Source of the DNA: Sneathiella marina
GTDB lineage: Bacteria; Pseudomonadota; Alphaproteobacteria; Sneathiellales; Sneathiellaceae
Assembly: GCF_023746535.1 (NCBI RefSeq)
Contig: NZ_CP098747.1
Span: forward strand, 3,647,501 to 3,711,500
Direction: 5' to 3'
Length of the DNA stretch: 64,000 nucleotides
The translations under genes were made by a program, and so were the position numbers. The notes beneath the pieces are model-generated. The model searched no databases. It was given only the letters and a program-made list of their open reading frames with translations, and had not been told where the DNA came from. Positions 22,856 through 44,476 of this stretch are shown one piece after another; within the stretch, counting starts at the first letter, position 1, and the number at the start of each line of letters is the position of its first letter.

Positions 22856-22937
22856 GATCGGGACCTCCGGGCGAGAGGTGACATTAAAAAAAACGGCTGA
22901 GAAAATAATACCCTGTCCGGAAACCGGCAGGTCTGAA

Positions 22938-25379: not shown

Positions 25380-25478
25380 TTTTCCGAAATCGCACAGAAT
25401 CCAACCTAATAAATATTATTTATTTTGAGGTTTGAAGTCTTTCCGGAATTCTCATATGACGCGTATATTAGATATGAA

Positions 25479-25494
25479 TGTTTCACGTGAAACA
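25479..25494. promoter_or_regulatory. parS: parS site (ParB binding), copy 1
   Basis: TGTTTCACGTGAAACA is a perfect match to the universal chromosomal parS palindrome and extends to 18 bp with flanking A and T. It lies in the convergent gap between the CoA transferase and the ankyrin-flavoprotein genes. ParB nucleates here for chromosome segregation and SMC loading. The 38 bases at 25461-25498 are nearly the same as those around copy 2 (43249-43286). Confidence 0.93.
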
Positions 25495-25649
25495 TGTGCT
25501 TTCCCGACGGAAAAGAAGGGGCGGATGCAGGAAAACGACCCCTGACAGAGCAGTTACCATGTTTCTGTCAGGGATATCTTCACATTTTCACCGCAGGAGA
25601 TGCGGGTCTCTAACCTGGAATTGGCCCCGAATGCTCAGGATAGAGAGTG

Positions 25650-28139
25650 TCAGTCATCCAGGTCATCATATTCATCCATGCCCTCCAGCTCATCCAGATC
25701 ATCGAGATCGTCCTGCGCATCCTGGTCTTTGTCGCCTTGGTCCATATCCTCAACCAGGCCGCCCGGATTTGGTTCCCACCCCGGGTCCGAAACCGATAAG
25801 CCTTCACTGCTGATAAATGCATCCAGCGCCTTGCTCTCTTTACGCCACAACTCCCCTTCTCCCACGCTGTAAGCGAATTCAGCCGCGTAGATTTTAGCCA
25901 CAACTTTAGCGTATTTGAGAACACCGGGAACAGATTGTAAGTCGAATAGTTGTGCCTGCAAAAAATACCCGACGCCGCGCCGGTCCGGTGCATGCTCCTT
26001 GTTTCGATCCAGCAACTCAAAAGTGCCGTCATCACTGATAAAAGCGTGGCTTTCCATGGTGTCGGCTGTTGCAGTCGGCGCCGTAAAACTGAGACGGTCA
26101 TCTGCCTGCAGGCCCTGCGTCAGAGCAGATTCATCCAGATAAAATTTGCTGCCCAGGCCAATGGTGCCCAGTAAATAATCGCAATTCGTAACCTGTAGGG
26201 ACCCCTCCTGATCCCGGTAGGTAATGTCCAGTGTTCTATCGTCAGGGGCAACGGCGGGGGCCCCTACCACGACACGGGCATTCAATGCTCCGGCTTTATG
26301 CATGGCCATGAGAATTTTTGCGGAACGAAGGGGCATTGGCGCCACGGCCCAGAGTGTTTGAGAGTTATACTTATTATAATATTCCTTCCGCTCCTCCGCC
26401 GTGAACTGGCTAAACAGCAGCCTGATAGCTCCCAGCATCCCACTGCCGACCAGCCACCAGGCCACATATGCCTTATCCGGCGTCCGGCCATCCCCGACGA
26501 CAGCGCGTTCGATATCTTTTTCGATAATCTTGAACGGATCTTTCTTGTATTCCGGCCGGCTCTGCAGAGGGTCGATTTCTTGCCTCACGTCAATGGGACG
26601 ACCCAATTGATGCGTAAATTCCCTGTTAAACAGGTCCATCACCTTGCTGAACGAAACTCGTCCGTTATTGAGGCGGCGCTGAACTTTTTCCATACTCAAA
26701 TATTTAAAATCAAGATCGGCATTCTGGAGAGGACGAACCCTGGGAAAAAGACCGCGGCGTGAATAGGTGGCAACTTTCCATCTCTTGTCAAACAAGGTAT
26801 AGCGCACATTGCCATCGTCATCCCATGTCAGCTTTCCGACTTTCGGATGCAAGAGGATCGTGAATATCGCGTCTATGGCCGACAAGGATGATCCTAAAAT
26901 CGCAATCTCTTTTGGCTGCTTGAAAATTCCCTTGGCATCAAGTTCCTCAAAATTCATGGGAAAAGGGATATAGGCATCCGTTTCTTCGTACGGTTTCGGT
27001 TTGTCCGATAGCTCTTGCCAATGACCGACCGCATAAAAGCATTGCGTCGCCTCCAGTTCCTGTGGCGCGGCCTCGGGCTCGGCCAAATTTTTTATCTGAA
27101 GCATCAACGGCGCAAGGCCGGATTTGCCGGGCGCTGCCGGTACTTCCTTAATTACTTCAGCTTGAGATAAAACCGTCACATGTATGCCAGCGTCCTGGGC
27201 AATTTTCACCCATTTTGCAACTCGTTCCTTGGCATATTGTCCGAAAAACAACCGGGGATAAAAACCGTTGGGGTCAACCGACCCACCGACAACACCCATC
27301 TTATAGGCTTTCCCAAGCCTGTTCTTGAGCTCGCCCTTGTCATCCAGATCCTTAATCCACTCGACAAAATCATTGCTTTCATCGGCAACCAGGCTCATTG
27401 AGCTCGCCGCAACATTTAGAACGGATGTGTCGGCATTCAACTCTTCAGAATAGGGTGTCCCGGTTCCCAGATTCTTGCGCCGGTCAATCAGAACCAGACT
27501 ATGTTTTTTAAGATAATCCCTTCCCCCAAGCAAAAGACTGTCAGCGATCATGTTTTTGACAAGAGCAATAAACAAACTTACACCGGCCGGGCCGCCCCCA
27601 ATGATTGCCAACTGATGGAGGACAGCCTGACCGTTCAGTGTTTTGGCGCCGTGCGCGATTTTTTTCCACTGCTTATATTGCCCGCGTGCCAGAACCCCCT
27701 GCACACCAGTGACAGGGCGCGCGGCCATGCGACCTCCCCCACCCGGAATTTCGAGGTTAAAATCAGTTTGATAGTAGTTGATTTTATTCACGTCATCCAC
27801 GTTATCAATCAGCGCCCTGACGAATTCCACATTGTCGGATTCACAGGCGTAATGAAGAGCGGTCTTTCCGGAAAAATAATTCTTGCGGTTTATCTCCGCA
27901 CCCGATGCGAGGAGAATTTTGGTAATCTCCGCCGTATTATTAGAAGGCATGCGCTTATTATTGGGCGAATACCTATGCTTGGCGGCCCGCATAAGGAGCG
28001 TCATTCCGGATCTATCCGTATTATTCACGACATCAATATTAGTAGATATAATACTCCGTAATTCAGATATACTTCCTTTTCTGACAGATATACTTGCTTT
28101 CCTAGAAATATTTGTTAAAATTTTCTCAGATTTTGGCAA
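25650..28139 (-). CDS. Ankyrin repeats fused to an FAD/NAD(P)-binding flavoprotein
   Basis: The 829-residue protein has ankyrin repeats (about 38-122, for example SGKTALHYACESDNVEFVRALI), a linker, then an FAD-NAD(P)-binding domain starting LHQLAIIGGGPAGVSL (dinucleotide motif at 180-188) with GTGTPYSEELNADTSVLNVAASSMS, which fits the PF13454/YdhS-like group related to N-hydroxylating flavin monooxygenases. The last 40 residues are very acidic (DDLDDLDELEGMDEYDDLDD). The start is a TTG with GGAG six bases upstream. It is the last gene of the minus-strand nitrile cluster. A role in amine oxidation to an aldoxime is a hypothesis only. Confidence 0.8.
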   Translation of the reverse strand: MPKSEKILTNISRKASISVRKGSISELRSIISTNIDVVNNTDRSGMTLLMRAAKHRYSPNNKRMPSNNTAEITKILLASGAEINRKNYFSGKTALHYACESDNVEFVRALIDNVDDVNKINYYQTDFNLEIPGGGGRMAARPVTGVQGVLARGQYKQWKKIAHGAKTLNGQAVLHQLAIIGGGPAGVSLFIALVKNMIADSLLLGGRDYLKKHSLVLIDRRKNLGTGTPYSEELNADTSVLNVAASSMSLVADESNDFVEWIKDLDDKGELKNRLGKAYKMGVVGGSVDPNGFYPRLFFGQYAKERVAKWVKIAQDAGIHVTVLSQAEVIKEVPAAPGKSGLAPLMLQIKNLAEPEAAPQELEATQCFYAVGHWQELSDKPKPYEETDAYIPFPMNFEELDAKGIFKQPKEIAILGSSLSAIDAIFTILLHPKVGKLTWDDDGNVRYTLFDKRWKVATYSRRGLFPRVRPLQNADLDFKYLSMEKVQRRLNNGRVSFSKVMDLFNREFTHQLGRPIDVRQEIDPLQSRPEYKKDPFKIIEKDIERAVVGDGRTPDKAYVAWWLVGSGMLGAIRLLFSQFTAEERKEYYNKYNSQTLWAVAPMPLRSAKILMAMHKAGALNARVVVGAPAVAPDDRTLDITYRDQEGSLQVTNCDYLLGTIGLGSKFYLDESALTQGLQADDRLSFTAPTATADTMESHAFISDDGTFELLDRNKEHAPDRRGVGYFLQAQLFDLQSVPGVLKYAKVVAKIYAAEFAYSVGEGELWRKESKALDAFISSEGLSVSDPGWEPNPGGLVEDMDQGDKDQDAQDDLDDLDELEGMDEYDDLDD

Positions 28140-28289
28140 TTTTTTCTCCAGTATGTAGGGATTTATTTACTATAAGGAGACGGGGGAAATTATTTATTCG
28201 TGAATACTTTATGCCAAAATCCGCAATGTAATTCAGAAGACTTTCCCCCAGCATCAAAAACCAAAAATATAGACTGGTATGAACCTGAT

Positions 28290-28679
28290 CTAATTTTCTG
28301 AATTCCGGTCAAGCTGACCCTCTCTGATTTCCGCGACGGTCGAGCGAATGCCGTCCATTTGCACCCGCAGTTCATGTGCTTCAAGAAAGCCGTCTTCGCG
28401 CAAGATTTCTTCCGCCGCCGCCAGCCAGCAGTCAAAATACTGTAAATCAATCTCTTCCATACTCAATTGAAGATCTGCATTTTGCTGTTGCGCAAGCCCA
28501 TGGACGAGACGCTGCTGAAAAGATTTCCAGGAAATTTGATCCCTGTTCACCATGGCAACGACAAGCGCAAAAATCCTGCCATGCCATGCCAGCCGAAACA
28601 ACGGCTCCCCCTCCGGTTTTGCAGGAATAGCTGCTTCAGCCTGTTCACGTATGCCGGGGTGTAAATCAGATGTGTTCAA
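28290..28679 (-). CDS. Nitrile hydratase accessory protein
   Basis: The 129-residue protein starts (TTG read as Met) MNTSDLHPGIREQAEAA and contains EPLFRLAWHGRIFALVVAM and YFDCWLAAAEEILREDG, which resemble the helical part of the nitrile hydratase beta subunit. This is the pattern of the activator/accessory family that helps insert cobalt into the alpha subunit. GGAGG six bases before the TTG decides the start, and the gene overlaps the beta-subunit stop by 14 bases. The longer frame to 28868 is only antisense reading of the beta gene. Confidence 0.85.
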   Translation of the reverse strand: MNTSDLHPGIREQAEAAIPAKPEGEPLFRLAWHGRIFALVVAMVNRDQISWKSFQQRLVHGLAQQQNADLQLSMEEIDLQYFDCWLAAAEEILREDGFLEAHELRVQMDGIRSTVAEIREGQLDRNSEN

Positions 28680-29334
28680 GATAGGCCTCCGCCAAATCCA
28701 GATAAACATAATCGCCCGGATTTTCCGCATTTTCGCCCCATAAAGCTTTTGCTGAAAAGGCGACATTGTAGCAATGTTGTGGATGCGGTCCCTGACCAGC
28801 AGCAACCGTATCGGCAAACTGAAAAACCCCCTCATCTTTGGTGATCTTCCCCAGTCTGCCGCGCACATATCGAGGGACCCTGGTATGCCCTTGCGGACAA
28901 TTAGCCCGAACCCGTACGGTCTGGCCCACGATAAATCCAGCGGGATAATCTGCCGGCGGAAAGCGCATGTCCTGACCGGTTTTCATGGCATCGACCAACG
29001 CTTCCGGGCGTGATGGCGGATGGGCGTCCAGATCCACGCTGAACTGCATTTTTCCCTCTCGCAATTCATCTTCACTGACTAATCCGGCATCTTTCATCAG
29101 CTCTTCCGTCGCATATAGCCATTTGTCAAAATAGTCCCATCGAAGGTAGTCAACGGCCGGCAGCTGTTCGATTTTTTGGCGATGCATATCGGCAACGTAA
29201 GGTGTTGGTCCCGCCAATGCCTGGACCAGCGCAAAGGCACGGCGCTGACAGTGCCACTTGAAGGCAACGTCCTCTTCCTTGATCGGAACCGGCCCGAAAC
29301 CATGCATTCCGCCCAGGTCATGTATACCGTCCAT
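28666..29334 (-). CDS. nthB: Nitrile hydratase beta subunit
   Basis: The 222-residue protein starts MDGIHDLGGMHGFGPV, the invariant N-terminus of nitrile hydratase beta subunits, and ends with the SH3-like C-terminal domain (VRVRANCPQGHTRVPRYVRG...YVYLDLAEAYLEHI). It packs against the alpha subunit around the metal centre. The frame could open 18 bases earlier at a GTG, but the conserved N-terminus fixes the ATG at 29334. It lies 38 bases after the alpha gene and overlaps the accessory gene. Confidence 0.95.
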   Translation of the reverse strand: MDGIHDLGGMHGFGPVPIKEEDVAFKWHCQRRAFALVQALAGPTPYVADMHRQKIEQLPAVDYLRWDYFDKWLYATEELMKDAGLVSEDELREGKMQFSVDLDAHPPSRPEALVDAMKTGQDMRFPPADYPAGFIVGQTVRVRANCPQGHTRVPRYVRGRLGKITKDEGVFQFADTVAAGQGPHPQHCYNVAFSAKALWGENAENPGDYVYLDLAEAYLEHI

Positions 29335-29372
29335 ATCCTTTTCCCCTTGCACATCCAGGCCCGCATTGGCGG

Positions 29373-30020
29373 CTAGATGAAAGCCGTTCCAATCATCCCG
29401 TTTCGGGTTACCAGTTCAGCCAGTTGACATGCATCCAGCTCGTCCGTGCCGTGCGGTCGCTGGGGCAGAACCATAAACCTGATCTCGGCCGTGCTGTCCC
29501 AAACCTTAATTTCAATATTCTTTGATAACTGCAGGCCAAATTCGGCCAGTACACTTCGAGGTTCCCGAACAATTCGCGACCGATACGCTGCCCCCTTATA
29601 CCAGGCCGGCGGCAGGCCAAGGACCGGCCAGGGATAACAGGAACATAAAGTACAGACAATGACGTTATGAACATCAGGTGTATTCTCGACAACCCGCATA
29701 TGCTCCCCTTGATAGCCCTTGAAGCCCATGCTGTGAATTGCTGCCGTACCATCGGCAAGCAACCAGTCCTTGAACTCCGCATCGACCCACGCTCTTGCAA
29801 CAACCGACGCGCCGTTACGGGGGCCGGTTTCACGCTCGTAATATTCAATAATCCTGTCCAGGGCTTCTGGATCGACCAGGCCTTTTGCAACCGCCAATTC
29901 CTCAAGCGCCCTTACCCGCAAAGTTGCCCCTTCCTCCAGCGGATCGTGATCATGGTCATGTTCATGGTCATGGGGCTGGCCAGACTTCCCCGGTATATCC
30001 CTGTTGTCGTTATGTGACAT
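29373..30020 (-). CDS. nthA: Nitrile hydratase alpha subunit, cobalt type
   Basis: The 215-residue metal-bearing subunit hydrates nitriles to amides. The claw motif [11 protein letters not shown] (cysteines 123, 126, 128; Ser127) binds the metal. Thr in CTLC marks the cobalt class, where iron enzymes have Ser. The N-terminus [10 protein letters not shown] (about 17-26) is an extra metal-binding His-Asp stretch. It lies 15 bases after the amidase gene on the same strand, so amide made here passes to the amidase product. Confidence 0.95.
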
Positions 30021-30035
30021 TATTCTTCACCCCTG

Positions 30036-31421
30036 TTAAAGCCCAGATCTAACGCTATTGATCTCTGCCAGCTGACATTGCGTGATGGCTTGATAATGCG
30101 GTCGAATTGAAAATAATTGCTCAAGCTGCCGCGCGATCATGAGGATGTCGCCATCGCCCTCACAACGGCCGACCAGTTGAATACTCACGGCCCGGCCGTC
30201 CGGCCTGAGAACCGCTGGCATTGAGACAGTCGGATGGCCGGTTTGGTTAAATAACGACGTATAGCGAACAGTTACTTCCAGCTTGCTCCTGCTAACCCCT
30301 CCAACCTGCACAGCCATTTCTCCCCTCAGCGGTGAATCTGTGGGCAATGTCGGCAATATTATCGCATCAACCTCTTTCAGAATACTATCAACAGTCAAAT
30401 ACGCATTATAGCGCAAACGTTCAGCCTCATTGCACATCTCAACCGTTAGATCTCGACCGAACTCAACAGTATTGCGGGCGACTTCCGGATAGTCCGGCCA
30501 ATCACCCGGAAAATGGGCAATGTGGAAATCTGCCGCTTCCCGTGAAAGATTAATCATGTGAAAATTCATAACCTGATCCGGGTCGGGCAAGGTGACGTTT
30601 CTCATCTCAATACCCTCGACCACAAGCGCACAAGCGACCTGCTCCATGGCCGCCCGTATATCCGGGTCAGCATCCTGGAAAAAAACCACTGGCATCCCCA
30701 GCCTAATGTGTTGCAAGGGCACTCTGGTATCAGGTTTCTCGAATTTCGGATCAATGATCGATTGAAGGATCTGTAAGTCTTCAACAGATCTCGCCATCGG
30801 TCCAACATGATCAAGGGAGGGGGCAAGAGGAAAAACGCCCAGGGCATCCACCCGGCCCCAGGTCGGTTTAAACCCATATACGGAACAGCAAGCAGCGGGT
30901 ATTCGAATGCTGCCACCCGTATCTGTTCCAAGGGCCGCATACGCCATTCCGGCGGCGATGACGGCCCCCGATCCGCCACTTGAGCCGCCGACCGTCCGAT
31001 TCGGGGCAAGCGGGTTGATGACATTTGGCGTGTCTGTGGAAAAAGCGCCGGGGTCGGTTTCTGTCACACCAATGACAACGGCCCCGGCGCCTCGCAATGC
31101 CTTTACAACAGGAGCATCAAGGGCGGGCTGATGGCCAGAGCGACTGGCAAGACCCGCACTGCAAATTGCAGGACTGGTATCGATTAAATCCTTGATCGCG
31201 ATTGGGACACCGTCCAAAAGGCCCTTTGATACGCCTTGCTGCCTTCGCGTATCAGACGCCTTGGCTTCTTCAAGGGCTGTCTCGGGCAGAAGCTGGCTAT
31301 ACGCACCAATGGACGGGTTCAATCGCCGAATTATCGAAAATAATTCGCTGCAAAGCTCGAAAGATGAAATTTCTCCGGATCCTAGTTTTTCTGAAACAGC
31401 TTTAAGGGTTTCAAAACTCAT
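30036..31421 (-). CDS. Amidase (amidase-signature family)
   Basis: The 461-residue protein has the Ser-cisSer-Lys triad of the amidase-signature family: VPIAIKDLID (Lys77), VGGSSGGSGAV (cis-Ser147) and GTDTGGSIRIPA (nucleophile Ser171). It hydrolyses amides to the acid plus ammonia. Placed directly before nitrile hydratase, it is expected to take that enzyme's amide product. A 209-base gap before it (31422-31630) has TTGTAAAAATACAA, a short inverted repeat, at 31448-31461, and may contain a promoter for the amidase-nthAB unit. Confidence 0.92.
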   Translation of the reverse strand: MSFETLKAVSEKLGSGEISSFELCSELFSIIRRLNPSIGAYSQLLPETALEEAKASDTRRQQGVSKGLLDGVPIAIKDLIDTSPAICSAGLASRSGHQPALDAPVVKALRGAGAVVIGVTETDPGAFSTDTPNVINPLAPNRTVGGSSGGSGAVIAAGMAYAALGTDTGGSIRIPAACCSVYGFKPTWGRVDALGVFPLAPSLDHVGPMARSVEDLQILQSIIDPKFEKPDTRVPLQHIRLGMPVVFFQDADPDIRAAMEQVACALVVEGIEMRNVTLPDPDQVMNFHMINLSREAADFHIAHFPGDWPDYPEVARNTVEFGRDLTVEMCNEAERLRYNAYLTVDSILKEVDAIILPTLPTDSPLRGEMAVQVGGVSRSKLEVTVRYTSLFNQTGHPTVSMPAVLRPDGRAVSIQLVGRCEGDGDILMIARQLEQLFSIRPHYQAITQCQLAEINSVRSGL

Positions 31422-31630
31422 ATAATTCAGCTTTCAGTGACGGTATGTTGTAAAAATACAATTTTAAACAGCATTCATTCCGTGAAGATTGTAAATGCGG
31501 CCACCGACCTGAAGTATCCAAACCTAATAATGTTTACATTGACTTCTTTATAAGTAATAGGGGAATAGAGTCGGGCTAATCGTTCTGATGGAAAGGCCTC
31601 CTAAAAAGAAATTTTGATTATTACAGTGCT

Positions 31631-32680
31631 CTAAACTGAATTGAGCATTCCCGTCTGGCGATGACAGTTGAAATATTCGAACTGCTGATCACAGGCTCTT
31701 AGAACACTCATTTCATGATATAAGCGAAGCTTGTACCCTTCGCCGGCGGTTTTGTAATGTTGGATACCGGCCCTGAAGATGGCCAAATGTGTTTCTTTTT
31801 GAACCCATTCCTCGATTGCTGCCAGTGAGTGCCATGCGCTCAAACTATAAGTCTTGTCTGTTGAGCCCTGTTCCGTCAGCAACGTCATATAGCGATTGAA
31901 AAAGCAGCCGATACCGGCACCGCCGTCGCGAATTTCCAGCATTCCCCTGTCGAGAAACGGTTTCACTTCACGAAGATAAAAATCCCGCTCCTGCTGCTCG
32001 GTATCAGACCAGTCCTGGCCGGATCGCAAGAGACATAAATTCTCGTGCGGTGCGATCGAAACAAGACGCCCCCGTGTTTCCGGGCGGATTTCAGACCCAG
32101 CTTTAAGGGCGGCCGTTGGCTCCAGGGCCTCCGTTTGGGCGCGCGGAAGGCGGTCCCGCGCACTCCCCCAATAACCATGGGTATCCGTCTCACCGCTCAT
32201 GCCCCTTGCAATTTTGGAATATCCTTCAGGATACGGATGGGAGAAGGTCGTTTCCGTGTCGGCAATGCCCGGCGTGTAACATTCTTTGAAAAATCCAAGA
32301 TCCCCATCAAGACTCGCGTCCGCATGCCACCAGTCCGGCGTTAATCCGGTTTGCCAACGGTGAAATTCCTGCGCGTCATCCCAGTACCCGACAACGATGA
32401 CATTCGTGTATTCAGCCTCATCGACATAACTGGCCATATCCCAGAATGACGGTTTATGCGGGGCTGAAAACCCTTGTTTCAACCGGTCAACTGCTGCAAT
32501 AGCCTGCTCGGTTTCCACCCGATATTGCACCCCGAAATAAGCCATGACCAATGTCACCACATCAGGGTCAAAGCGTGCTGAAAACGAGGGAGATACAGGC
32601 TTGAAAGTCTCATCTGCGCCAAGCGGGCGGGTACGCGGGACACGCAGATGCGCCGGAATTGCAGCTTCAAGCTTTTTCAT
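31631..32680 (-). CDS. oxd: Aldoxime dehydratase (haem enzyme, OxdA/OxdB family)
   Basis: The 349-residue protein matches the phenylacetaldoxime/aliphatic aldoxime dehydratase family in length and in the C-terminal KLRLYHEMSVL...FEYFNCHRQTGML. These enzymes bind haem b and convert aldoximes to nitriles in the cytoplasm. By position relative to known enzymes, His298 (THLAIF) is the likely axial haem ligand, and His322, Ser220 (LLRSGQDW) and an Arg in ARDRLPR (175-180) the likely catalytic residues. It is last in the ABC-transporter run, 66 bases after livM. Confidence 0.93.
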   Translation of the reverse strand: MKKLEAAIPAHLRVPRTRPLGADETFKPVSPSFSARFDPDVVTLVMAYFGVQYRVETEQAIAAVDRLKQGFSAPHKPSFWDMASYVDEAEYTNVIVVGYWDDAQEFHRWQTGLTPDWWHADASLDGDLGFFKECYTPGIADTETTFSHPYPEGYSKIARGMSGETDTHGYWGSARDRLPRAQTEALEPTAALKAGSEIRPETRGRLVSIAPHENLCLLRSGQDWSDTEQQERDFYLREVKPFLDRGMLEIRDGGAGIGCFFNRYMTLLTEQGSTDKTYSLSAWHSLAAIEEWVQKETHLAIFRAGIQHYKTAGEGYKLRLYHEMSVLRACDQQFEYFNCHRQTGMLNSV

Positions 32681-32746
32681 TCTGTCAAATCTCCCAACCC
32701 ACTCAAACGAACTGTCGACTGATGTCCAAATCCGCTTTCTGTCCTT

Positions 32747-33793
32747 TTATGAACTTTGCGCCCGCACCGGTTTCGCACGCTGCTCCTTTGCATTCCTGCC
32801 CGTATTCTGGCCAAGCCGTGATAAAATTCCGCGCGGGGCGCCGGCAATTCCTTTCGGTAGAAAAAGAACGAAAATCACAAGGACAATCCCGATGGCCGTG
32901 TTGCGTATATCCCCCATGCTTTTGGCGACCTCGACGAGGATCATCATGGCCATTGCCCCGAAAATCGGGCCCCATGTGGATTTCAACCCGCCGACCACCA
33001 GCATGGCCAGAATGAAAACAAGTGTTGGAAACTCCAGCAGGCTTGGCCCGGCAAACCGGAAATGGGCGGCATAGACGGCCCCGGAAAGGCCGGTAAAAAA
33101 AGCCGTAATTACAAACGCGATAATGTGAAATTTTGTTCTGTTAAGGCCCCGGCTCGCGGCATAGGCGGGGCTGTCATTCAATGCGCGGAACGCCAGCCCC
33201 AAGCGACCGTGAATGACCAGTATTGATGCCACGAACGACACCGCCAGGGACGCCAGCACAACAAAATAGTTGCCGACAATCCAGTTTCCTTTCAGCAGCT
33301 TGCGAAATCCCAAATCCTGGAAAGCCGAAAATCCATTGCCTCCCCCGAACAAGGGCTGACAGGTTCCACCTGCCGTGACAAAACATTCCGCGTCCGTAAT
33401 GATCAGGGTATGAACCATAAAGACAATGGCAAAGGTCAAAAGGGCCACATAGGCGGTTCCCAGGCGCAGGCAGGCAAGCCCGATAACCAGGGCAATTAGC
33501 GCGGCTACCGCCGCACCGACCGGCAAACCCAGCCAGGGCGAAAAATCGAGGTAAGTCGCCGACATTCCGACCATATATGCCCCAATTGCAAAAAACAGCA
33601 TTTGGCCGAGCGAAAAAACGCCGGCATGGCCCAGCAGGACGTTCCACTGAATAGCGACCGAGGCCCACAGCATAAAAATAATGATCTCGCCCATGAAGTA
33701 ACGTTGGGTGATAAAGAACGGTAATATGGCCATTCCCATGAGAAAAAAAGCTGCCAGTAAAATATTGCGTTGTATCTCGCTTAAACGGCTCAT
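32747..33793 (-). CDS. livM: Liv-type ABC transporter permease LivM
   Basis: The 348-residue permease of the branched-chain amino acid/amide/urea importer class has about ten hydrophobic spans and the family pattern GRLGLAFRALNDSPAYAASRGLNRTKFHI. Its gene overlaps livH by four bases. It pairs with LivH in the membrane to carry ligand from the periplasmic binding protein. In this cluster the likely cargo is a nitrile, amide or amino-acid-like compound, which sequence cannot settle. Confidence 0.92.
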   Translation of the reverse strand: MSRLSEIQRNILLAAFFLMGMAILPFFITQRYFMGEIIIFMLWASVAIQWNVLLGHAGVFSLGQMLFFAIGAYMVGMSATYLDFSPWLGLPVGAAVAALIALVIGLACLRLGTAYVALLTFAIVFMVHTLIITDAECFVTAGGTCQPLFGGGNGFSAFQDLGFRKLLKGNWIVGNYFVVLASLAVSFVASILVIHGRLGLAFRALNDSPAYAASRGLNRTKFHIIAFVITAFFTGLSGAVYAAHFRFAGPSLLEFPTLVFILAMLVVGGLKSTWGPIFGAMAMMILVEVAKSMGDIRNTAIGIVLVIFVLFLPKGIAGAPRGILSRLGQNTGRNAKEQRAKPVRAQSS

Positions 33794-34668: not shown

Positions 34669-34672
34669 TGCC

Positions 34673-35383: not shown

Positions 35384-35387
35384 ATGC

Positions 35388-36185
35388 TCAGTCTCCCCCC
35401 ATCTCGTCAGCCTCGGATCCCAAATAGACTGACTTCACCAGAGGATCCGCCGCCATTCCCGGGGGAGTGCCATCATAAATGAGCTTTCCTTGATGCATGA
35501 TCAGGGCTCTGTCCGCAACTGTGGTCAGAAATCGCATCACATGCTCGATAAAGACGATACAAGTTCCCTTACCCCGTAGATTTATCATCAGCTCAATGAA
35601 TTCATCGATCTCCGCCGGCATCAATCCGCCAACAGGCTCGTCCAGCAATAAAATTTGCGGGTGATGAACAACAGCGGACGCCACCATCAGTTTTTTCCGG
35701 TCAAGCACCGGGATGTTGGAAACCAGATCATCCGCAATATCAGCCAGTCCATACTCCGCAAGGCAAGACATCGATTTTTCACGATGCGCCTTGCTCAGCA
35801 GCAGGCCCGCTTCCTCGTTACCCGACCCATTCACAACAGAGGCCAGCATATTCTGCAACACAGTCAGGCTTCCGAATCCGCTGGTAACCTGAAAGGTCCG
35901 CGCCATCCCCATATGAAACAGCTTGTGCGGTGCTATCCCGGTAATTGCCTGCCCGTTAAACAGAACCTGACCCGCAGAAACCGCTGTCAGGCCGGAAATC
36001 AAATCGAAAAAAGTCGTCTTTCCGGCTCCGTTAGGTCCCCCGATACCAATTGTCTCGCCAGCTGCGATGTTCAAATTGATGCCGTCAACAGCTTTCAAGG
36101 CACCATAGTGCTTTTTTACCTGTCGACACTCAAGAAGGGACTCAACGGATCCGGTCACGACCATGCGCCTTCCTATGTCATCCAC
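35388..36185 (-). CDS. livG: Liv-type ABC transporter ATPase LivG, degenerate signature
   Basis: The 265-residue ATPase has Walker A GPNGAGKTT, Walker B ILLLDEPVGG and the H-loop FIEHVMRF. The ABC signature, normally PYGQQR or SGGQ-like, is replaced by PVLDRKKL (about residues 159-166). One of the two ATP sites of the LivF-LivG dimer would therefore be non-canonical. The start overlaps the binding-protein gene by 13 bases; an ATG seven codons later is possible. Confidence 0.9.
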   Translation of the reverse strand: MDDIGRRMVVTGSVESLLECRQVKKHYGALKAVDGINLNIAAGETIGIGGPNGAGKTTFFDLISGLTAVSAGQVLFNGQAITGIAPHKLFHMGMARTFQVTSGFGSLTVLQNMLASVVNGSGNEEAGLLLSKAHREKSMSCLAEYGLADIADDLVSNIPVLDRKKLMVASAVVHHPQILLLDEPVGGLMPAEIDEFIELMINLRGKGTCIVFIEHVMRFLTTVADRALIMHQGKLIYDGTPPGMAADPLVKSVYLGSEADEMGGD

Positions 36186-37498
36186 GAGGGTTTTTCAAAT
36201 TTTGCAATATCGTATGGTGCCGGCGAAATGATATAGCCATTATCCTCCTTCTTCTTGATCTGGCTGAATATATGCGGCATCCCAAGCGAGGGATCATCGG
36301 TCTCCACCGGATAGGAGTATCCGGACTGGGTATCCGCATGGAATCGCATGACCCCAAGCGGTGTCCGATATATACTGTCTTTCAAGCGCGCCGCAATTTT
36401 GCGGTTTTGCTCCTCTTCGTAAGGCTCCCCTGCACCCCCGGCCAGGGCTGCCGCCTGAGCGTATAAATGCAAGGCAGAATAAGTTTGCCCGCCCCCATTC
36501 GGAGAGGCTTTGTCGCCATATTTCTCAAGATAGGTTGTTGTGAAGTCCTGACCGATCACGCCGGAGAGAACGCCGATATTGGTCGCGTACAGGACACCCT
36601 CCGACGCGCTACCGGCAATATCCCTGAACGCCGCCAATGAAGCACCATACTGAAGATAAATCAGGCTATCCGTCGGATTGTTCATAAACTGGATCATAAA
36701 CTGAGCCTGATCCTGAGGGAAGAAATGCGTATTTACAATGAAGGCCGGCGGATCCGCCCGGAGTTTTGCCAGCGTAGGACCCCATTCCGATGTTGGCGCC
36801 TGCACAGTTTCATACAAGGAAATTTCATATCCATATTCTTTCGCCCGCCCCTCAATCGCCTTGGCAATATTGATCGAGTAGGTAATGGGACCTGTAATAA
36901 GGGCTATTTTTCTGTTTGGCGGCGTAAATTGCCCGGTATCTTCCAGGTTTTTTATGAAATCGAGATAGGCAAATCCGTAAAAAAGCTCGGACGGGCAATA
37001 CATAAAGGATCCCCAAAACCGTTTTGGGTCGTTGCTGACGAGATCGGCATGCGCCCGGGCGGTATCCGCATGCATGTAAAGCACAGAGGAATCAGCCGCC
37101 ACGTTCTGAAGCGCAATCTGCGATCCAAGGTTATAACCGGAAATCAGGACACTCGCGTTGCTGCGATCAATCAGCCGCTGTGCGGCACTGCTGATAACGT
37201 CATCGCCTTTTGTCTCCGTGTCCTCGAACGCCAGCTCGATAGGTCGGCCGAGAATGCCACCGGCAGCGTTAATTTCCTCAGCGGCCATCTCCAGACCCCG
37301 CTTGAATTCCGCCCCATCCGCGGCAACCCCGCCGGTCAGCGGTAGCGGGCCGCCGACAACGACAGGGTCCGAAGATTGAGCAGATGCGGTTTGGTTAAGC
37401 CCTGCCAATACAGCAGCCGAGCCAACACCGCCCAGGCCTGCTGTTTTCAGAAAATTACGTCGCGACGCTACTGTTTTACCCTTTGAGCTGCGTGTCAT
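36173..37498 (-). CDS. Liv-type substrate-binding protein with Tat signal
   Basis: The 441-residue periplasmic protein starts with a twin-arginine signal (ASRRNFLKTAG, hydrophobic core, cleavage near ASAQS) and continues as a type I Leu/Ile/Val/amide-binding fold (VVVGGPLPLTGGVAADGAEFKRGLEMA). It should capture the ligand for LivHMGF. Tat export means it folds in the cytoplasm first. It is the first gene of the importer run; a LysR gene ends 283 bases upstream, leaving room for a promoter. Confidence 0.92.
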   Translation of the reverse strand: MTRSSKGKTVASRRNFLKTAGLGGVGSAAVLAGLNQTASAQSSDPVVVGGPLPLTGGVAADGAEFKRGLEMAAEEINAAGGILGRPIELAFEDTETKGDDVISSAAQRLIDRSNASVLISGYNLGSQIALQNVAADSSVLYMHADTARAHADLVSNDPKRFWGSFMYCPSELFYGFAYLDFIKNLEDTGQFTPPNRKIALITGPITYSINIAKAIEGRAKEYGYEISLYETVQAPTSEWGPTLAKLRADPPAFIVNTHFFPQDQAQFMIQFMNNPTDSLIYLQYGASLAAFRDIAGSASEGVLYATNIGVLSGVIGQDFTTTYLEKYGDKASPNGGGQTYSALHLYAQAAALAGGAGEPYEEEQNRKIAARLKDSIYRTPLGVMRFHADTQSGYSYPVETDDPSLGMPHIFSQIKKKEDNGYIISPAPYDIAKFEKPSWMT

Positions 37499-37706
37499 TT
37501 TGTCCCTCTCCTGTCTTAGGTTGTTTTCAGATTTTCATGCCCGGCAAGATTCTTCCGAGAATATTCAAATCAAATATCCGGAGGCGCCAACACCACATCA
37601 GTGCTGCATGTCAAACCACCTGCCAGCCGGTGATGTTCCGGCTTCTACACATAAAGATGACAGATATTCCCATCTAGAAATATCCAAATGTAATAATATT
37701 CAGTTT

Positions 37707-37722
37707 GAGAATTATCTATGTA
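37707..37722. promoter_or_regulatory. Candidate shared operator, copy before the importer operon
   Basis: GAGAATTATCTATGTA on the plus strand matches GAGATTTATCTATGTA on the minus strand at 38711-38696 at 15 of 16 positions. Both copies lie upstream of genes in this cluster, next to the LysR gene. It is a candidate LysR-type binding site. Confidence 0.4.
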
Positions 37723-37781
37723 TTACCGATGATATGAGATCAGACCACGAGAAGCACCGCCCCGCCAAAATCGGCCCCCGG

Positions 37782-38684
37782 CTATGTTCTGAACTCTCGC
37801 AATAGCTCATAAAATTTCTTCTCCGCAGGGGTTCGGGCTGCCGACTTGCGACGGATCATTTCATACTGCGAATTATACCTATACTCTTGCGGAAGAACCG
37901 ACCGCATCAACCCTTCCGAAATCCAGTGACTGGCGTAATGCACAGGCAAAAACGCCAGATACTGGCCGGATAAAATGAGATGTGCGAGGCCCTCAATCGT
38001 CTGGGCGCGGGCGGTAAACTTGAACGGGCGCTCGTTTTCAGGCAGCTGATCGAAAGAGACATAGCCCCGCTGTGCATGATCGAATTGGGCTACATCTTCG
38101 GGTGTCAGATTTTGCTCCGGCGCCTCAAATAACGGATGATATTTGCCACAATACAGTTCCATATTTGATGTAAAGGCCGGTTCATATTCGAGCTGGGTCA
38201 GACGGCGCGGGAAAAAACCGATGGCTATGTGCGCCTGGCTGCTCAAAACCATTTGTTCAAGTTGGTTTGGCGGTGCCACATGAACCGTAATGTCTACATT
38301 GTGGTCCAGCTTGCCGAATTCCCGAATAACGTGACCGACTTGAAAAGTTGGATGGTTCACCGTGTTGTCGATGATTGCGATCTGCAGCTCGCCAACAAGT
38401 TTCTCATATCCCAGCACCAAACTGCGAAAGTCTTCCAGATGATTGAAGAGGGCATTGGACGCATCATAAACGCGCTGACCGTCCTCGGTCAGTGCGAAAC
38501 CGCCCCGGCCCCGTTGACACAATGTAAGTCCCAATCGCGTTTCCAGGTTTTTAATGTGAATACTGATGGTCGCCTGGCTGACATTCAACTCCGTTTGGGC
38601 CAGCGAGAATCCTCCGCTTTGCGCGACCGCCCTGAAAACGCTCAGCAACTTTAAATCCACATTACTCACTGAAGGTAACGGCAT
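37782..38684 (-). CDS. LysR-family transcriptional regulator
   Basis: The 300-residue protein has an N-terminal winged helix-turn-helix (LLSVFRAVAQSGGFSLAQTELNVSQATISIHIKNLE) and a C-terminal ligand-binding domain. It sits between the divergent amidohydrolase operon and the importer operon, so it is the likely local regulator of both. The inducer would be a pathway compound. A candidate operator lies at 38696-38711 in its divergent promoter region. Confidence 0.92.
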   Translation of the reverse strand: MPLPSVSNVDLKLLSVFRAVAQSGGFSLAQTELNVSQATISIHIKNLETRLGLTLCQRGRGGFALTEDGQRVYDASNALFNHLEDFRSLVLGYEKLVGELQIAIIDNTVNHPTFQVGHVIREFGKLDHNVDITVHVAPPNQLEQMVLSSQAHIAIGFFPRRLTQLEYEPAFTSNMELYCGKYHPLFEAPEQNLTPEDVAQFDHAQRGYVSFDQLPENERPFKFTARAQTIEGLAHLILSGQYLAFLPVHYASHWISEGLMRSVLPQEYRYNSQYEMIRRKSAARTPAEKKFYELLREFRT

Positions 38685-38695
38685 CAGCTTCCCTC

Positions 38696-38711
38696 TACAT
38701 AGATAAATCTC
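38696..38711. promoter_or_regulatory. Candidate shared operator, copy before lysR and the plus-strand operon
   Basis: TACATAGATAAATCTC on the plus strand (minus strand GAGATTTATCTATGTA) repeats the element at 37707-37722 with one mismatch. It lies 12 bases before the LysR start in the divergent region with the amidohydrolase gene. Confidence 0.4.
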
Positions 38712-38822
38712 TAACTAAACATTGTTACATCTAAATTTCCATGGATACCAGCCTCATCTAATATGCGTTCATTCTTTGAGCCGGAAGCAATTCCGGACAG
38801 GCCGATGCCAGCGGGAGTAATC

Positions 38823-40070
38823 ATGCTTTTAGACAAACCAAATACATTGGAGATAAATGACCAAAGGTTATGGGATACACTTATGGTGTCCGCCACAATT
38901 GGACCGGGGAAAAGTACGGGCCTTCGTCGTCTGGCGCTCAGCGACGAAGACAAAAAGATGCGGGATCAATTTGTGCGCTGGTGTGTAACGGCGGGCTGCA
39001 AAATCGCGATTGATCGTGTTGGCAATATATTTGCGCGGCGGGACGGGCAAGATGCCTCTCTGTCACCGGTCCTGATGGGAAGCCATCTTGATACGCAAAT
39101 CGCGGGCGGAAAATATGATGGCATCCTGGGCGTTCTCTCAGGTTTGGAAGTCATCAGAACGCTGAATGACCGGAATATCGAAACACGTCGCCCGATTGAA
39201 GTTGTATGCTGGACAAATGAGGAAGGCGTTCGCTTTCAGCCCCCGATGATGGGCGCGGGAGCATTTGCCGGCGCCCATGAAATTGACTGGGTCCTGTCAC
39301 AAACAGACGATGAGGGGATCGTCTTTGGGGAAGAATTGCAGCGAATTGGATATGCGGGGGAAACCGATCGCAACCCGGCTGATATAGATTCCTATTTTGA
39401 ACTGCATATCGAACAGGGACCAATTCTTGAAGAGGAAGGTATTGACGTCGGGATAGTAACGGGCGGCTTCACGTCATTCGGAGCCCAGTTGATTATGAAA
39501 GGCGAGCATGCCCATTCCGGCCCAACGACCATGAAGCAACGCAAAGACGCCCTTGTTGGCGCCGCTGTCATCGTCGCCAAGGTAAATGAAATCGGCTGGG
39601 ACTATGAGCCGAAGGGGCGCGCCACATGCGCCCGGATCGACGTCTCGCCCAACAAATACGGCATTATCGCCGATCATGCGGAGGTAACCATTGATGTCCG
39701 CCACCCCGACCCCGACCTGGCCGACGAAATGTATCAAAAAGCCCTTGCCCTGATCCCCGTAGCCTCAAAACAGGCCAATGTGGAAATTGCGTTAGTCAAG
39801 GAATGGTCTTTTGGCAATGTGGGGTTTAATCCGGACATGGTAAATCTCATTCGCAGTGTCGCCTCGGATCTGGAGGTCCCGCACAAGCATTTGTTGAGTG
39901 CCGCCGGTCATGACGCCTATCATTTGTCCGAGATTGCGCCGACCGCCATGATCTTTACTCCCTGCAAGGGCGGTGTATCCCATAACGAAAATGAACATAT
40001 CGAGCGGAGCTACACGATCCCGGGCGTCAATGTCCTGCTCAATGCTGTTCTACGCCGCGCAAACAGCTGA
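38823..40070 (+). CDS. M20-family zinc amidohydrolase (N-carbamoylase/allantoate amidohydrolase type)
   Basis: The 415-residue protein shows GSHLDTQIAGGKYDG (zinc His and bridging Asp), NEEGVRF, FELHIEQGP and GVSHNENEH, the pattern of the HyuC/AmaB/allantoate amidohydrolase group that removes carbamoyl or ureido groups. GGGAG six bases before the ATG at 38823 decides the start over the ATG at 38763. Its stop overlaps the next frame (TGATG). In this cluster it may release an amino acid from a carbamoyl or amide form. The substrate is open. Confidence 0.9.
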   Translation: MLLDKPNTLEINDQRLWDTLMVSATIGPGKSTGLRRLALSDEDKKMRDQFVRWCVTAGCKIAIDRVGNIFARRDGQDASLSPVLMGSHLDTQIAGGKYDGILGVLSGLEVIRTLNDRNIETRRPIEVVCWTNEEGVRFQPPMMGAGAFAGAHEIDWVLSQTDDEGIVFGEELQRIGYAGETDRNPADIDSYFELHIEQGPILEEEGIDVGIVTGGFTSFGAQLIMKGEHAHSGPTTMKQRKDALVGAAVIVAKVNEIGWDYEPKGRATCARIDVSPNKYGIIADHAEVTIDVRHPDPDLADEMYQKALALIPVASKQANVEIALVKEWSFGNVGFNPDMVNLIRSVASDLEVPHKHLLSAAGHDAYHLSEIAPTAMIFTPCKGGVSHNENEHIERSYTIPGVNVLLNAVLRRANS

Positions 40071-40093
40071 TGAAAATTCAAGGGACGAAAACC

Positions 40094-41386
40094 ATGTTAA
40101 CGAATGAAGCGGTTCTAACACGAAAAAACAACGCCATCGCCCGCGGTGTTGGCATGATGACGGAAATTTTTGCGGACAGAGCCGAGAACTCCGAGCTTTG
40201 GGATATCCAGGGCAATCGATTTATCGATTTTGCGGCCGGCATTGCCGTCGTCAATACCGGTCATCGGCATCCACGGGTCATTGAAGCCGTCAAAGCCCAG
40301 CTGGATCGCTTCACCCATACCTGCCATCAAGTTGTTCCCTATGAAAATTATGTGTCACTGGCGGAACGGCTGAATGATTTGGTCCCCGGTGATTTCCCTA
40401 AAAAAACAGTTTTTGTCACAACCGGGGCAGAAGCCGTCGAAAATTCCGTTAAAATTGCCCGCGCGGCAACCGGCCGCTCCGCCGTTATCGCCTTTACCGG
40501 CGGCTTTCATGGCCGGACCTTTATGGGCATGTCTCTCACCGGTAAGGTGTTCCCGTACAAAGCTGGCTTTGGCCCCATGCCAGGGGACGTATATCACGCC
40601 CCGTTTCCCGTAGAATTGCACGGCGTGTCGTCCGATATGTCTCTGGCAGCGCTGGACAAGCTGTTTAAGGCTGATGTTGAACCCGCCCGCGTTGCGGCGA
40701 TTATCATTGAACCCGTACAGGGTGAAGGTGGTTTCTATGAAGCATCGACATCGTTTTTGAAATCCTTGCGCGAGATTTGCGATACTCACGGCATTTTGCT
40801 GATCGCCGATGAGGTACAAACCGGGTTCGCGAGAACCGGGAAAGTTTTTGCCATGGAACATCATGGCGTGGCGGCAGATCTGACAACAATGGCAAAAGGC
40901 CTTGCCGGTGGTTTTCCACTGGCCGCGGTCACAGGCAAGGCGGACATCATGGATGCTGCTAATCCGGGGGGGCTTGGCGGCACTTATGGCGGCAGCCCCG
41001 TCGGCATCGCTGCGGCCCATGCTGTTCTTGACGTGATCGAGGAGGAGGAATTATGCGCCAGGGCCGTCCTGCTTGGATCCCGGTTGACGCAAAGGCTTCA
41101 GGGATTGGTTGGCCATATCCCGGAAATTTCCGATATCCGCGGACCCGGTTTCATGAACGCAATTGAATTCAAGCAGATCGGTTCGGGCCTGCCAAACCCC
41201 GAATTTACAAATATGGTTCGTCAACAGGCCTACAAGAGGGGGTTGCTGTTATTGTCCTGCGGAATACATGCCAATGTCATTCGATTCCTGGCACCCCTTA
41301 CCATCGAGAATTCGATTTTTCAGGAGGCGCTCGACATCCTTGAAATGTCCCTCAAGGATGCGCATGCATCGGCGGGGGCAGGCTGA
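40094..41386 (+). CDS. gabT: 4-aminobutyrate-type aminotransferase
   Basis: The 430-residue PLP enzyme of the class III group has FVTTGAEAVENSVKIARAAT, LIADEVQTGFARTGK, and MAKGLAGGFPLAAV with the PLP lysine. It transfers the omega-amino group of 4-aminobutyrate or a similar omega-amino acid to an oxo acid. AAGGGACG before the ATG at 40094 supports this start over the ATG at 40070. It overlaps gabD by one base (TGATGG), which points to sequential steps. Confidence 0.88.
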   Translation: MLTNEAVLTRKNNAIARGVGMMTEIFADRAENSELWDIQGNRFIDFAAGIAVVNTGHRHPRVIEAVKAQLDRFTHTCHQVVPYENYVSLAERLNDLVPGDFPKKTVFVTTGAEAVENSVKIARAATGRSAVIAFTGGFHGRTFMGMSLTGKVFPYKAGFGPMPGDVYHAPFPVELHGVSSDMSLAALDKLFKADVEPARVAAIIIEPVQGEGGFYEASTSFLKSLREICDTHGILLIADEVQTGFARTGKVFAMEHHGVAADLTTMAKGLAGGFPLAAVTGKADIMDAANPGGLGGTYGGSPVGIAAAHAVLDVIEEEELCARAVLLGSRLTQRLQGLVGHIPEISDIRGPGFMNAIEFKQIGSGLPNPEFTNMVRQQAYKRGLLLLSCGIHANVIRFLAPLTIENSIFQEALDILEMSLKDAHASAGAG

Positions 41387-42867
41387 TGGTTGAAATGGAC
41401 CCGCTATCGAACCGCCTGGAGGACCCGTCCTTGCTTCTAAGCAGCGCCTTCATAGGCGGTATATGGCACACCCGTTCCTCGGCGAACAAGACATTTGATG
41501 TGGTCAATCCATCAACGGGGAAGGTGCTTGCGACGCTTCCCGATATGGGTATCAAGGAAACAAGGACAGCAATCGACATTGCCCATAGAGCCCAGATCGA
41601 CTGGGCCGGGAGAACCGGCAAGGAGCGTGCGGGCATATTACGAAACTGGTTCGACCTGATGGTCTCCAATGCGGATGACCTGGGCGCCATCTTGACGGCG
41701 GAAATGGGAAAGCCACTGACCGAAGCCGTTGGCGAAATACTGTATGGCGCCAGCTTCATAGAATGGTTCGCTGAAGAAGCAAAACGGGTTTATGGTGATG
41801 TCATACCCGGCCATCAACCTGACAAGCGAATTGTCGTCTTGAAACAACCTGTCGGCGTGGTCGCGTCAATCACCCCCTGGAATTTTCCCAATGCAATGAT
41901 TGCCCGTAAAGTTGGTCCGGCGCTTGCCGTCGGATGCGCCTTCGTTGCCAAACCCGCCCAGCAAACCCCCTTGTCTGCGCTGGCGATGGCCTTGCTGGCG
42001 GAACGTGCCGGTGTTCCAAGCGGTCTTTTCAGTGTCATCCCCTCGACGTCCAGTTCCAAAATCGGGCAGGAATTCTGTGCGAACGAGAAAATCAGGAAGC
42101 TGACCTTTACGGGATCAACCGAGGTTGGCCGTATCCTGATGCGGCAGTCGGCCGACCAGATTATGAAAACGTCGATGGAGCTGGGCGGCAATGCCCCCTT
42201 TATCGTTTTCGATGATGCGGATCTCGACGCCGCCGTCGAGGGTGCGATGATATCCAAATATCGCAACAATGGTCAGACATGCGTTTGCGCGAACCGTATT
42301 TATGTCCAGGCAGGTGTCTATGAGGCGTTCGCCGAAAAACTGGTGACTGCCGTAGAGAAAATAAAAGTCGGAGATGGCTACACGGAGGGCGTGACAGCCG
42401 GGCCTCTTATTGATGAGGCCGCCCTCGTCAAGGTTCGGGCTTTGGTGGCAGACGCTGCGTCCAAAGGGGCCCGGATTGTCACCGGCGGCGCCCGGCACGC
42501 ATTGGGTGGTACCTTCTATCAACCAACGGTACTGACCAATATTACCCCTGATATGGCGCTGGCTCAGGAAGAAATTTTCGGGCCCGTTGCGCCGCTGTTC
42601 AAATTCGACACTGTTGAGGATGTGATCAATCAGGCGAACGACACAATTTTCGGTCTTGCCTCGTATTTCTACGCACGCGACCTGTCGAAAGTCTGGCAGG
42701 TTGCCGAAGCGCTTGAATATGGCATGGTGGGTGTCAATACAGGCCTTATATCAACCGAAGTCGCCCCTTTTGGGGGCGTGAAGCAATCAGGACAGGGGCG
42801 TGAAGGATCAAAATACGGCACCGAAGACTATCTTGAGATGAAATATATATGCATGGGAGATATATGA
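41386..42867 (+). CDS. gabD: Succinate-semialdehyde-type aldehyde dehydrogenase
   Basis: The 493-residue NAD(P)-dependent aldehyde dehydrogenase has SITPWNFPNAMIARKVGPAL, TFTGSTEVGR, the catalytic Glu in MELGGNAPFIVF and the catalytic Cys in NNGQTCVCANRIYV. Family and its place after gabT point to oxidation of succinate semialdehyde or a close omega-semialdehyde, feeding the TCA cycle. A strong terminator at 42969-43008 ends the operon. Confidence 0.93.
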   Translation: MVEMDPLSNRLEDPSLLLSSAFIGGIWHTRSSANKTFDVVNPSTGKVLATLPDMGIKETRTAIDIAHRAQIDWAGRTGKERAGILRNWFDLMVSNADDLGAILTAEMGKPLTEAVGEILYGASFIEWFAEEAKRVYGDVIPGHQPDKRIVVLKQPVGVVASITPWNFPNAMIARKVGPALAVGCAFVAKPAQQTPLSALAMALLAERAGVPSGLFSVIPSTSSSKIGQEFCANEKIRKLTFTGSTEVGRILMRQSADQIMKTSMELGGNAPFIVFDDADLDAAVEGAMISKYRNNGQTCVCANRIYVQAGVYEAFAEKLVTAVEKIKVGDGYTEGVTAGPLIDEAALVKVRALVADAASKGARIVTGGARHALGGTFYQPTVLTNITPDMALAQEEIFGPVAPLFKFDTVEDVINQANDTIFGLASYFYARDLSKVWQVAEALEYGMVGVNTGLISTEVAPFGGVKQSGQGREGSKYGTEDYLEMKYICMGDI

Positions 42868-42968
42868 CTGTCCCTGTATGTGCTGACCCTATTCAGCCTT
42901 ACCCTGAAGACAAATTCAGATTATTGCCAAGGCTCTCCCCATACTCCCAAGTGACCCTGGCATACTTC

Positions 42969-43008
42969 GCCGACGGACGTTCTACCTTCCGTTCGTCGGC
43001 TTTTTTTT
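42969..43008 (+). terminator. Terminator of the amidohydrolase-gabT-gabD operon
   Basis: GCCGACG (42969-42975) pairs with CGTCGGC (42994-43000), with further pairing inside the loop, and is followed by eight T residues. It lies about 100 bases past the gabD stop. Confidence 0.9.
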
Positions 43009-43266
43009 ATCCTGTTATTGGTGCAATGGCGAAGGGGTGGGAAATTATAGCGGATCTAATCTTCAATGATGATATCTGTGATAGGGGCGAAACGGTTATT
43101 GTCATTTGTGCAAAATGGCTGCGGATTAGCATGGCGTTGCACGTGAACGAGTCGTTCCGGCTACCTGATTTTCCTCATTTGCATGGAATTTGATAAAATA
43201 AAAATGGTTTCTTAGGGGTTTACAGCCATTCGATTTTTATCTGTATACGGGTATATTAGGCATGAA

Positions 43267-43282
43267 TGTTTCACGTGAAACA
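43267..43282. promoter_or_regulatory. parS: parS site (ParB binding), copy 2
   Basis: A second perfect TGTTTCACGTGAAACA, in the convergent gap between gabD and the MltR-like gene. The surrounding 38 bases (43249-43286) match copy 1 except for three positions, so the two sites are extended repeats and not just isolated 16-mers. They are 17.8 kb apart. Confidence 0.93.
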
Positions 43283-43326
43283 TGTGTCCGCTTGGCCGAA
43301 AATTCTACTAAACCACCTGAAAATTG

Positions 43327-43340
43327 GAGCGGGCGAAGCG
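43327..43340. repeat. 14-bp copy of the tRNA-Gly 3' end (att-like)
   Basis: TGGAGCGGGCGAAG repeats 44311-44324 exactly, which is the 3' end of the tRNA-Gly gene including CCA. The repeat lies 970 bases downstream of the tRNA and brackets the AT-rich MltR-like gene, as an att site of an integrated element would. Confidence 0.65.
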
Positions 43341-43381
43341 GCCTAATTAATTCAACATCCTAAATCATCGCACTACTGTCA

Positions 43382-44122: not shown

Positions 44123-44310
44123 ACATCACCGCATCATTGTCAATCTTTCTCAGCAAAAAATATGAGAAAGTATCCACGCCTAAATGCACCCTATAAGAGA
44201 AATTTACAAACTTCAATCTCCCTAAAATTCTATCCAATTTACAACTCAATTCTTTTGTGGGACACTTTTCTTCTAAGGCTTTTAAATATACCATTAAATC
44301 AATGCGGAGC

Positions 44311-44471: not shown

Positions 44472-44476
44472 GATCA

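Follow-up and report, generated by a model that had tools for sequence, protein, structure and literature searches.

Chromosomal partition sites of the parS type probably reached the genome of Sneathiella marina on gene islands lying at the 3′ ends of tRNA-Gly genes. The window analyzed here, 64,000 nucleotides of S. marina DNA (genome G000, C1:3647501-3711500, part of a single contig of 4,067,215 bp), contains two exact copies, A and B, of the 16-mer TGTTTCACGTGAAACA, which we take to be the 16-bp palindromic consensus of chromosomal parS. Both lie inside a foreign insert at the 3′ end of tRNA-Gly(CCC), absent from the relatives examined, and each forms the right end of a module of ~125 bp that recurs in a second insert, at tRNA-Gly(GCC). 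With a probability of about 70%, a figure that covers this core claim only and not each step of the mechanism proposed below, canonical parS modules arrived with tRNA-Gly islands, and the host ParB is predicted to be able to use them. This suggests that gene islands can carry chromosome-segregation sites along.

The limits of the first insert were obtained from same-genus relatives. The metZ gene was searched in 24 genomes of the genus, and the region upstream of it was fetched for 20 of the 23 relatives (all but G009, G017, and G023). In all 20, the GGDEF gene (ending at window position 21730) and metZ (window 44559) are only 0.35 to 2.7 kb apart, and none of this DNA contains a parS-like sequence with up to two mismatches, one stretch including masked bases. 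In the nine intervals that were aligned with the window, the match reaches 21903 at the furthest and resumes from 44306 to 44311, so that the insert (Table 1) holds both parS sites. The tRNA-Gly(CCC) gene is present at the corresponding place in 14 of the 20 relatives.

An earlier note on this DNA had described two identical parS sites 17.8 kb apart, in convergent gaps and nearly identical surroundings, with a nitrile cluster between them. That observation holds up, and the case for it is stronger than the note made it: the sites are exact, the gaps are convergent (between the CoA-transferase gene on the plus strand and the ankyrin-FAD protein gene on the minus strand at A, and between the aldehyde dehydrogenase gene on the plus strand and open reading frame [ORF] 43382-44122 on the minus strand at B), the flanks are even more alike than claimed, and the genes for aldoxime dehydratase, nitrile hydratase alpha and beta, the accessory protein, and the amidase all lie between A and B. 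Two of the explanations offered there, chance spacing of native chromosomal sites and entry of the nitrile cluster between two resident sites, are rejected by the empty site in relatives, which have no parS-like sequence in the DNA fetched from this place in 20 of 20 cases, and the insert encloses both A and B. Relatives lacking the cluster and having one site had been named in advance as contrary evidence; those compared had zero sites at the locus. Duplication of a site together with the cluster comes closest, but the repeated unit is the ~125-bp module, which is also found in a second insert 0.6 Mb away. The placing of housekeeping genes outside the sites stands only in part: at this place relatives have no PhyH, GST, and CoA-transferase genes like those on the left side of A and no counterpart of the ORF beyond B, and these genes are therefore counted in the insert. 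The proper frame is thus parS modules contained in tRNA-Gly inserts, not a cluster bracketed by resident sites.

Within the window, A and B are the sole matches to TGTTTCACGTGAAACA with up to three mismatches (0.30 expected by chance), and two matches at this tolerance were reached in 5 of 100 shuffles of the window. Of the 20 bases to the left of parS, 17 are identical between A and B, as is a TGTG on the right, and the likeness extends ~100 bp further left. The core GTATATT-N9-parS-TGTG is common to A, B, and the perfect site at genome position 211121. Left of this core the A-B alignment beats 400 of 400 shuffles, and in the upstream part of the module the scores of A and B against 211121 were reached by 4 and 2 of 400 shuffles, respectively; no similarity among the three was detected in the sequence farther out on either side. 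When the genome was searched at the DNA level with B, the matches were B itself, 211117-211207 (76% identity), and 3672875-3672998, which is A (72%), the weaker matches being bare parS with few flanking bases or short matches. By sequence similarity, the module is limited to three copies in this genome, the third in insert 2. The copies differ by 24 to 28% over the aligned stretch while the parS bases are kept 16 of 16.

A sequence model built from the three copies, which finds those three by construction, was compared under stricter filters with 385 genomes of the class, S. marina included. The S. marina copies scored 92.7 to 115.5 bits, and nothing else exceeded 21.1 bits; 27 of the 385 genomes passed an E value of 0.01, the weak ones apparently through parS plus AT-rich flanks. 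This sample took in some of the 23 genus relatives whole; for others, fetched stretches were scanned separately, and parS flanks were examined for the relatives other than G004, G006, G007, G008, G010, G015, G017, G019, and G023. A phage source was tried and rejected: the core pattern TATATT-N9-parS matched two viral contigs, along with 101 stretches among one genome each of 84,980 species (a set that may omit records of or near the genome of the window), and none of these 103 stretches exceeded 23 bits against the module model in a local nhmmer search. Among the 80 of the 101 that were listed, most were Firmicutes and Bacteroidetes by title, with Micavibrio and Holosporales records included. 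A plasmid source was likewise rejected: in plasmid searches the site A region gave three matches, all of them weak, and the insert gave five partial matches to coding sequence. Terminal inverted repeats, as in a miniature inverted-repeat transposable element or small transposon, were not found by alignment inspection and a palindrome scan, the palindromes being internal, and a search for an RNA family at the module with Rfam at gathering scores gave only tRNA and the SAM_alpha riboswitch.

The third module copy lies in a 46-kb insert at the 3′ end of tRNA-Gly(GCC). DNA common to S. marina and the relative G018 ends at 203499, 6 bp past the tRNA gene (203419-203493), and resumes at 249729; G018 represents the empty site, with tRNA-Gly(GCC) and both flanks together. 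For this locus, stretches of 1.8 to 12.9 kb were fetched from 20 relatives (G018 included; G004, G006, and G013 left out). The tRNA gene was found in 19 of them, the remaining stretch being too short, and the far flank gene (249674) in five, directly after the tRNA in G018 and ~5 to 6.5 kb beyond it in the other four. No insert 2 gene was detected at ≥40% identity in any of the 20 stretches. Absence from relatives and a boundary at a tRNA 3′ end, both hallmarks of islands, are thus found in both inserts. The ~700 kb examined contain seven tRNA genes; segments missing in the compared G018 region include six of these genes or come within 1.5 kb of them, and the module occurs in no such segment except the two at tRNA-Gly.

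Genome-wide, the 16-mer has eight exact copies (Table 1), versus ~0.001 expected for an exact 16-bp palindrome; one-mismatch sites are found at 2482852 and 3986724, and three sites have two mismatches. The dnaA gene is at the contig start (PF08299 match) and parB is at 51.2 kb (51217-51726; TIGR00180 match above cut-off), with two parS sites (49686 and 49965) within the gene preceding parA. The names gidA, gidB, parA, LutB-type, and lactate/malate-dehydrogenase-type were given by recognition of the translated sequences rather than by family searches. None of the eight perfect sites is more than 444 kb from gidB (the gidB-parAB locus), a span of 22% of the genome, with A at 444 kb and B at 426 kb from the native parS cluster. 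Five of the eight are additional to the gidA/gidB cluster, and the chance that five random sites all fall in that span is ~0.0005, or ~0.002 with A and B taken as one event; the span was chosen from the data, hence these p values are rough. The check suggested in the earlier note, a search for all parS sites and parAB across the genome, therefore bears out its claim that the window lies in the ParB loading zone near the origin. Left of dnaA the GC skew is negative, apart from a single 40-kb segment from −180 kb; it stays near zero between 20 and 140 kb and is positive further on. Within the ~700 kb examined its cumulative minimum is at +122 kb, and skew does not pinpoint the origin.

The ParB of this genome matches the solved chain 6t1f_A, presumably Caulobacter ParB bound to parS, over 223 residues (4.9e-65). 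Judged from this match, the genome encodes a ParB of the usual kind, with a parS cluster beside parB, and binding of ParB to the perfect consensus is predicted as very likely. A second, partial ParB-like match below the family cut-off lies in a 93-amino-acid open frame (469078-469275).

Table 1. Features of the window and perfect parS sites of the genome (window coordinates unless stated otherwise)
Feature	Position	Strand	Remark
Acquired insert 1, ~22.4 kb	~21904..44310		Between small conserved ORF after GGDEF gene and tRNA-Gly(CCC) 3′ end
PhyH, GST, CoA-transferase III genes (left of site A)	22046..25379		Absent there in relatives
parS module, copy A	25375..25498	+	72% identical to B over 123 bp
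parS site A, TGTTTCACGTGAAACA	25479..25494	+	Exact 16-mer match
Degenerate match (18/26) to tRNA-Gly(CCC) 3′ end	25517..25542	+	22 bp right of parS A; possible old attachment site, weak
829-amino-acid protein, ankyrin repeats and FAD/NAD(P)-binding domain	25653-28139	-	Inside insert 1
Nitrile/aldoxime genes	28290..32680	-	
Nitrile hydratase accessory protein	28290-28868	-	
Nitrile hydratase beta	28666-29352	-	
Nitrile hydratase alpha	29373-30020	-	
Amidase	30036-31421	-	
Aldoxime dehydratase (oxd)	31631-32680	-	
Rest of A-to-B cargo	32747..42867		Branched-chain-type ABC transporter genes, LysR, M20 peptidase, class-III aminotransferase, aldehyde dehydrogenase
parS module, copy B	43164..43286	+	parS at right end
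parS site B, TGTTTCACGTGAAACA	43267..43282	+	Exact 16-mer match
Exact 14-bp copy of tRNA-Gly(CCC) 3′ end, TGGAGCGGGCGAAG	43325..43338	+	Attachment-like direct repeat
ORF between the two tRNA-end repeats	43382..44122	-	MtlR match below family cut-off
tRNA-Gly(CCC)	44311..44384	-	3′ end is right edge of insert 1
Perfect parS sites, genome coordinates	27787, 47622, 49686, 49965, 211121, 3672979 (A), 3690767 (B), 3882651		

The annotated cargo is mostly metabolic in both inserts. In insert 2, the 20 ORFs annotated (part of the total) include GntR and LysR regulators, a TRAP transporter, an ABC transporter, oxidoreductases, an amidase, PhyH, a DNA glycosylase-like protein, and others, and one aminotransferase is 75% identical to the aminotransferase of the window insert. 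The window aldoxime dehydratase was matched in 4 of the 385 class genomes, S. marina included. S. marina has a second aldoxime dehydratase gene (3080819-3081865, 61% identical to the window enzyme); a second nitrile cluster there was rejected as a source, since neither another gene of the window cluster nor a parS-like site (up to three mismatches) was found between 3062 and 3100 kb. Three nitrile hydratase alpha genes are present in S. marina (162097, 1268506, and 3676882), and at least one such gene was found in 21 of the 24 genus genomes. Just upstream of metZ lies a SAM_alpha riboswitch (Rfam RF00521, 69.9 bits; window 44471-44549), which fits an alphaproteobacterial host.

The two tRNA-Gly genes have their last 12 bases in common; the shared 3′ end is TGGAGCGGGCGA. 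The exact 14-bp repeat beside B is 986 bp from the copy at the tRNA and 42 bp beyond parS, and, apart from the tRNA, the window has no other exact copy; the score of the degenerate match beside A is reached by 0.064% of the 150-bp windows of the ~700 kb examined. Together, the exact 14-mer by B and the degenerate match by A suggest that the parS sites may mark the ends of stacked islands, with an A-to-B unit of 17.8 kb.

Several observations weigh against island arrival in this form. Scores of 18 to 20 out of 26 were also obtained outside the window at 130291, 118408, and 83738, equaling or beating the repeat by A, and no attachment-like repeat was found where insert 1 begins on the left, at the end of insert 2 away from its tRNA, or beside the third parS site (211121). 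The three integrase (PF00589) matches of the genome are at 114, 324, and 806 kb, none in either insert; a decayed island would also be without an integrase gene. Composition is not unusual: the GC content at third codon positions is 0.56 and 0.48 for the inserts versus 0.53 for the core (standard deviation, 0.08). Around the origin, from −420 kb to +240 kb, about 198 of 660 kb (~30%) are without a counterpart, at the thresholds applied, in the 600 kb of G018 compared, and the presence of all three modules in G018-missing segments is by itself weak evidence (0.3 cubed, ~0.03). The one-mismatch site at 2482852 is far from the origin. In Caulobacter, an engineered second parS cluster is best tolerated near the native one, in a zone of ~500 kb around it, and disfavored mid-arm (PMC5815017); at 426 to 444 kb from gidB, A and B would by distance lie outside this tolerance zone, being beyond half of its width.

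In the favored scenario, the islands would derive from a pool of elements that integrate at the shared tRNA-Gly 3′ end and carry the module. The 17.8-kb spacing of A and B would be the length of a single unit among stacked islands, every unit ending in a module plus an attachment-like repeat, and the host ParB would putatively load at these two sites just as it does at its native ones. The islands may persist at their present places because extra parS sites would be better tolerated near the native cluster than mid-arm, a reading for which the tolerance zone of Caulobacter speaks.

Two accounts divide over the purpose of the module. It may be that the islands stem from origin-proximal donor DNA and that parS is passive baggage without benefit to the island, an account we regard as possible though somewhat doubtful. 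Where listed, the parS sites of relatives mostly form pairs or small groups ~2 kb apart, as at gidA/gidB in S. marina (their identity with gidA/gidB groups is presumed from spacing and flanks), and the scanned ORFs, 19 in insert 1 and 20 in insert 2, comprise mostly metabolic cargo and no plasmid or partition gene, observations in favor of such an origin; passive baggage should decay, however, and the module is found three times at two loci with parS intact despite the divergence of its surroundings. In the other account, which seems unlikely, the module would serve a family of tRNA-Gly-targeting islands as a functional component, a host-type centromere giving the excised or integrated element access to the host ParABS, by analogy with SGI1, which carries two mimics of the parS of IncC plasmids (PMC10954446) and uses the IncC system. 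In its fuller and equally speculative form, the conserved end module would recruit host ParB and possibly SMC, aid the segregation of the island, and confine its landings to the origin region. The three copies at two tRNA-Gly sites and the attachment-like repeats beside two of the three are in line with this, as is the SGI1 precedent; against it, no integrase lies in the inserts, no mobility gene was found among the annotated ORFs of either, the module is known from one genome only, and 211121 has no such repeat beside it.

Gain of parS in place, under selection for more ParB loading on the native chromosome and with convergence producing the likeness of the modules, is highly improbable for A, B, and 211121. 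New sites do seem to arise by substitution in this lineage: the perfect sites 27787 and 3882651 lie inside genes that are also conserved in G018, and the corresponding G018 stretches differ from parS at 5 and 4 positions at best. Among the 23 relatives, several of them incomplete drafts, 20 have two to four perfect sites, two have one, and G014 has seven, versus eight in S. marina. The three sites in question lie in inserts rather than in conserved DNA, however, and the A-B likeness upstream of the core, which surpassed every shuffle and is absent from neighboring stretches, already contradicts convergence. In G014, three of the seven sites lie within 100 bp (positions noted: C1:403145, 466.0 kb, 593574, and ~184.0 kb); its one-mismatch site ~2.4 kb from tRNA-Gly(GCC) does not resemble the module. 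Also improbable is a role of the module as a regulatory or transcript-end element to which a different CACGTG-palindrome protein would bind, with ParB binding secondary. All three copies do lie in convergent gaps, and A and 211121 have further AT-rich palindromes, but none of the three has lost any of the 16 parS bases, a usual-kind ParB is encoded in the genome, and no promoter box common to the three copies is apparent by eye.

Arrival of parS modules with tRNA-Gly islands, the reading we prefer, joins features of known systems. Like chromosomal parS of the Spo0J/ParB type, the sites are exact consensus 16-mers, origin-proximal, with a usual-kind ParB encoded nearby; unlike them, they lie on acquired inserts within a repeated ~125-bp module. 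With tRNA-integrated genomic islands the inserts share the tRNA 3′ edge, an attachment-like repeat, metabolic cargo, and empty sites in relatives, and they differ in having no integrase and in carrying perfect chromosomal-type parS. The nearest precedent we found for an island with partition sites is SGI1 (PMC10954446); it too is an integrated element with two parS copies fitting the ParB of another replicon, whereas here the target would be the ParB of the host chromosome and no mobility genes were seen. Ectopic parS sites in Caulobacter (PMC5815017) and in Pseudomonas aeruginosa, where a ~650-kb zone around oriC is competent for parS (PMC5098823), are similarly tolerated or effective only around the native cluster or oriC; those sites were engineered, while here island acquisition appears responsible. 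A limited literature search by titles and abstract openings gave, among the papers listed, no report of chromosomal-type parS on tRNA islands.

If true, the natural arrival of parS on acquired DNA would show that centromere sites move horizontally, and it would become testable whether parS limits where islands survive or whether islands exploit the partition machinery of the host.

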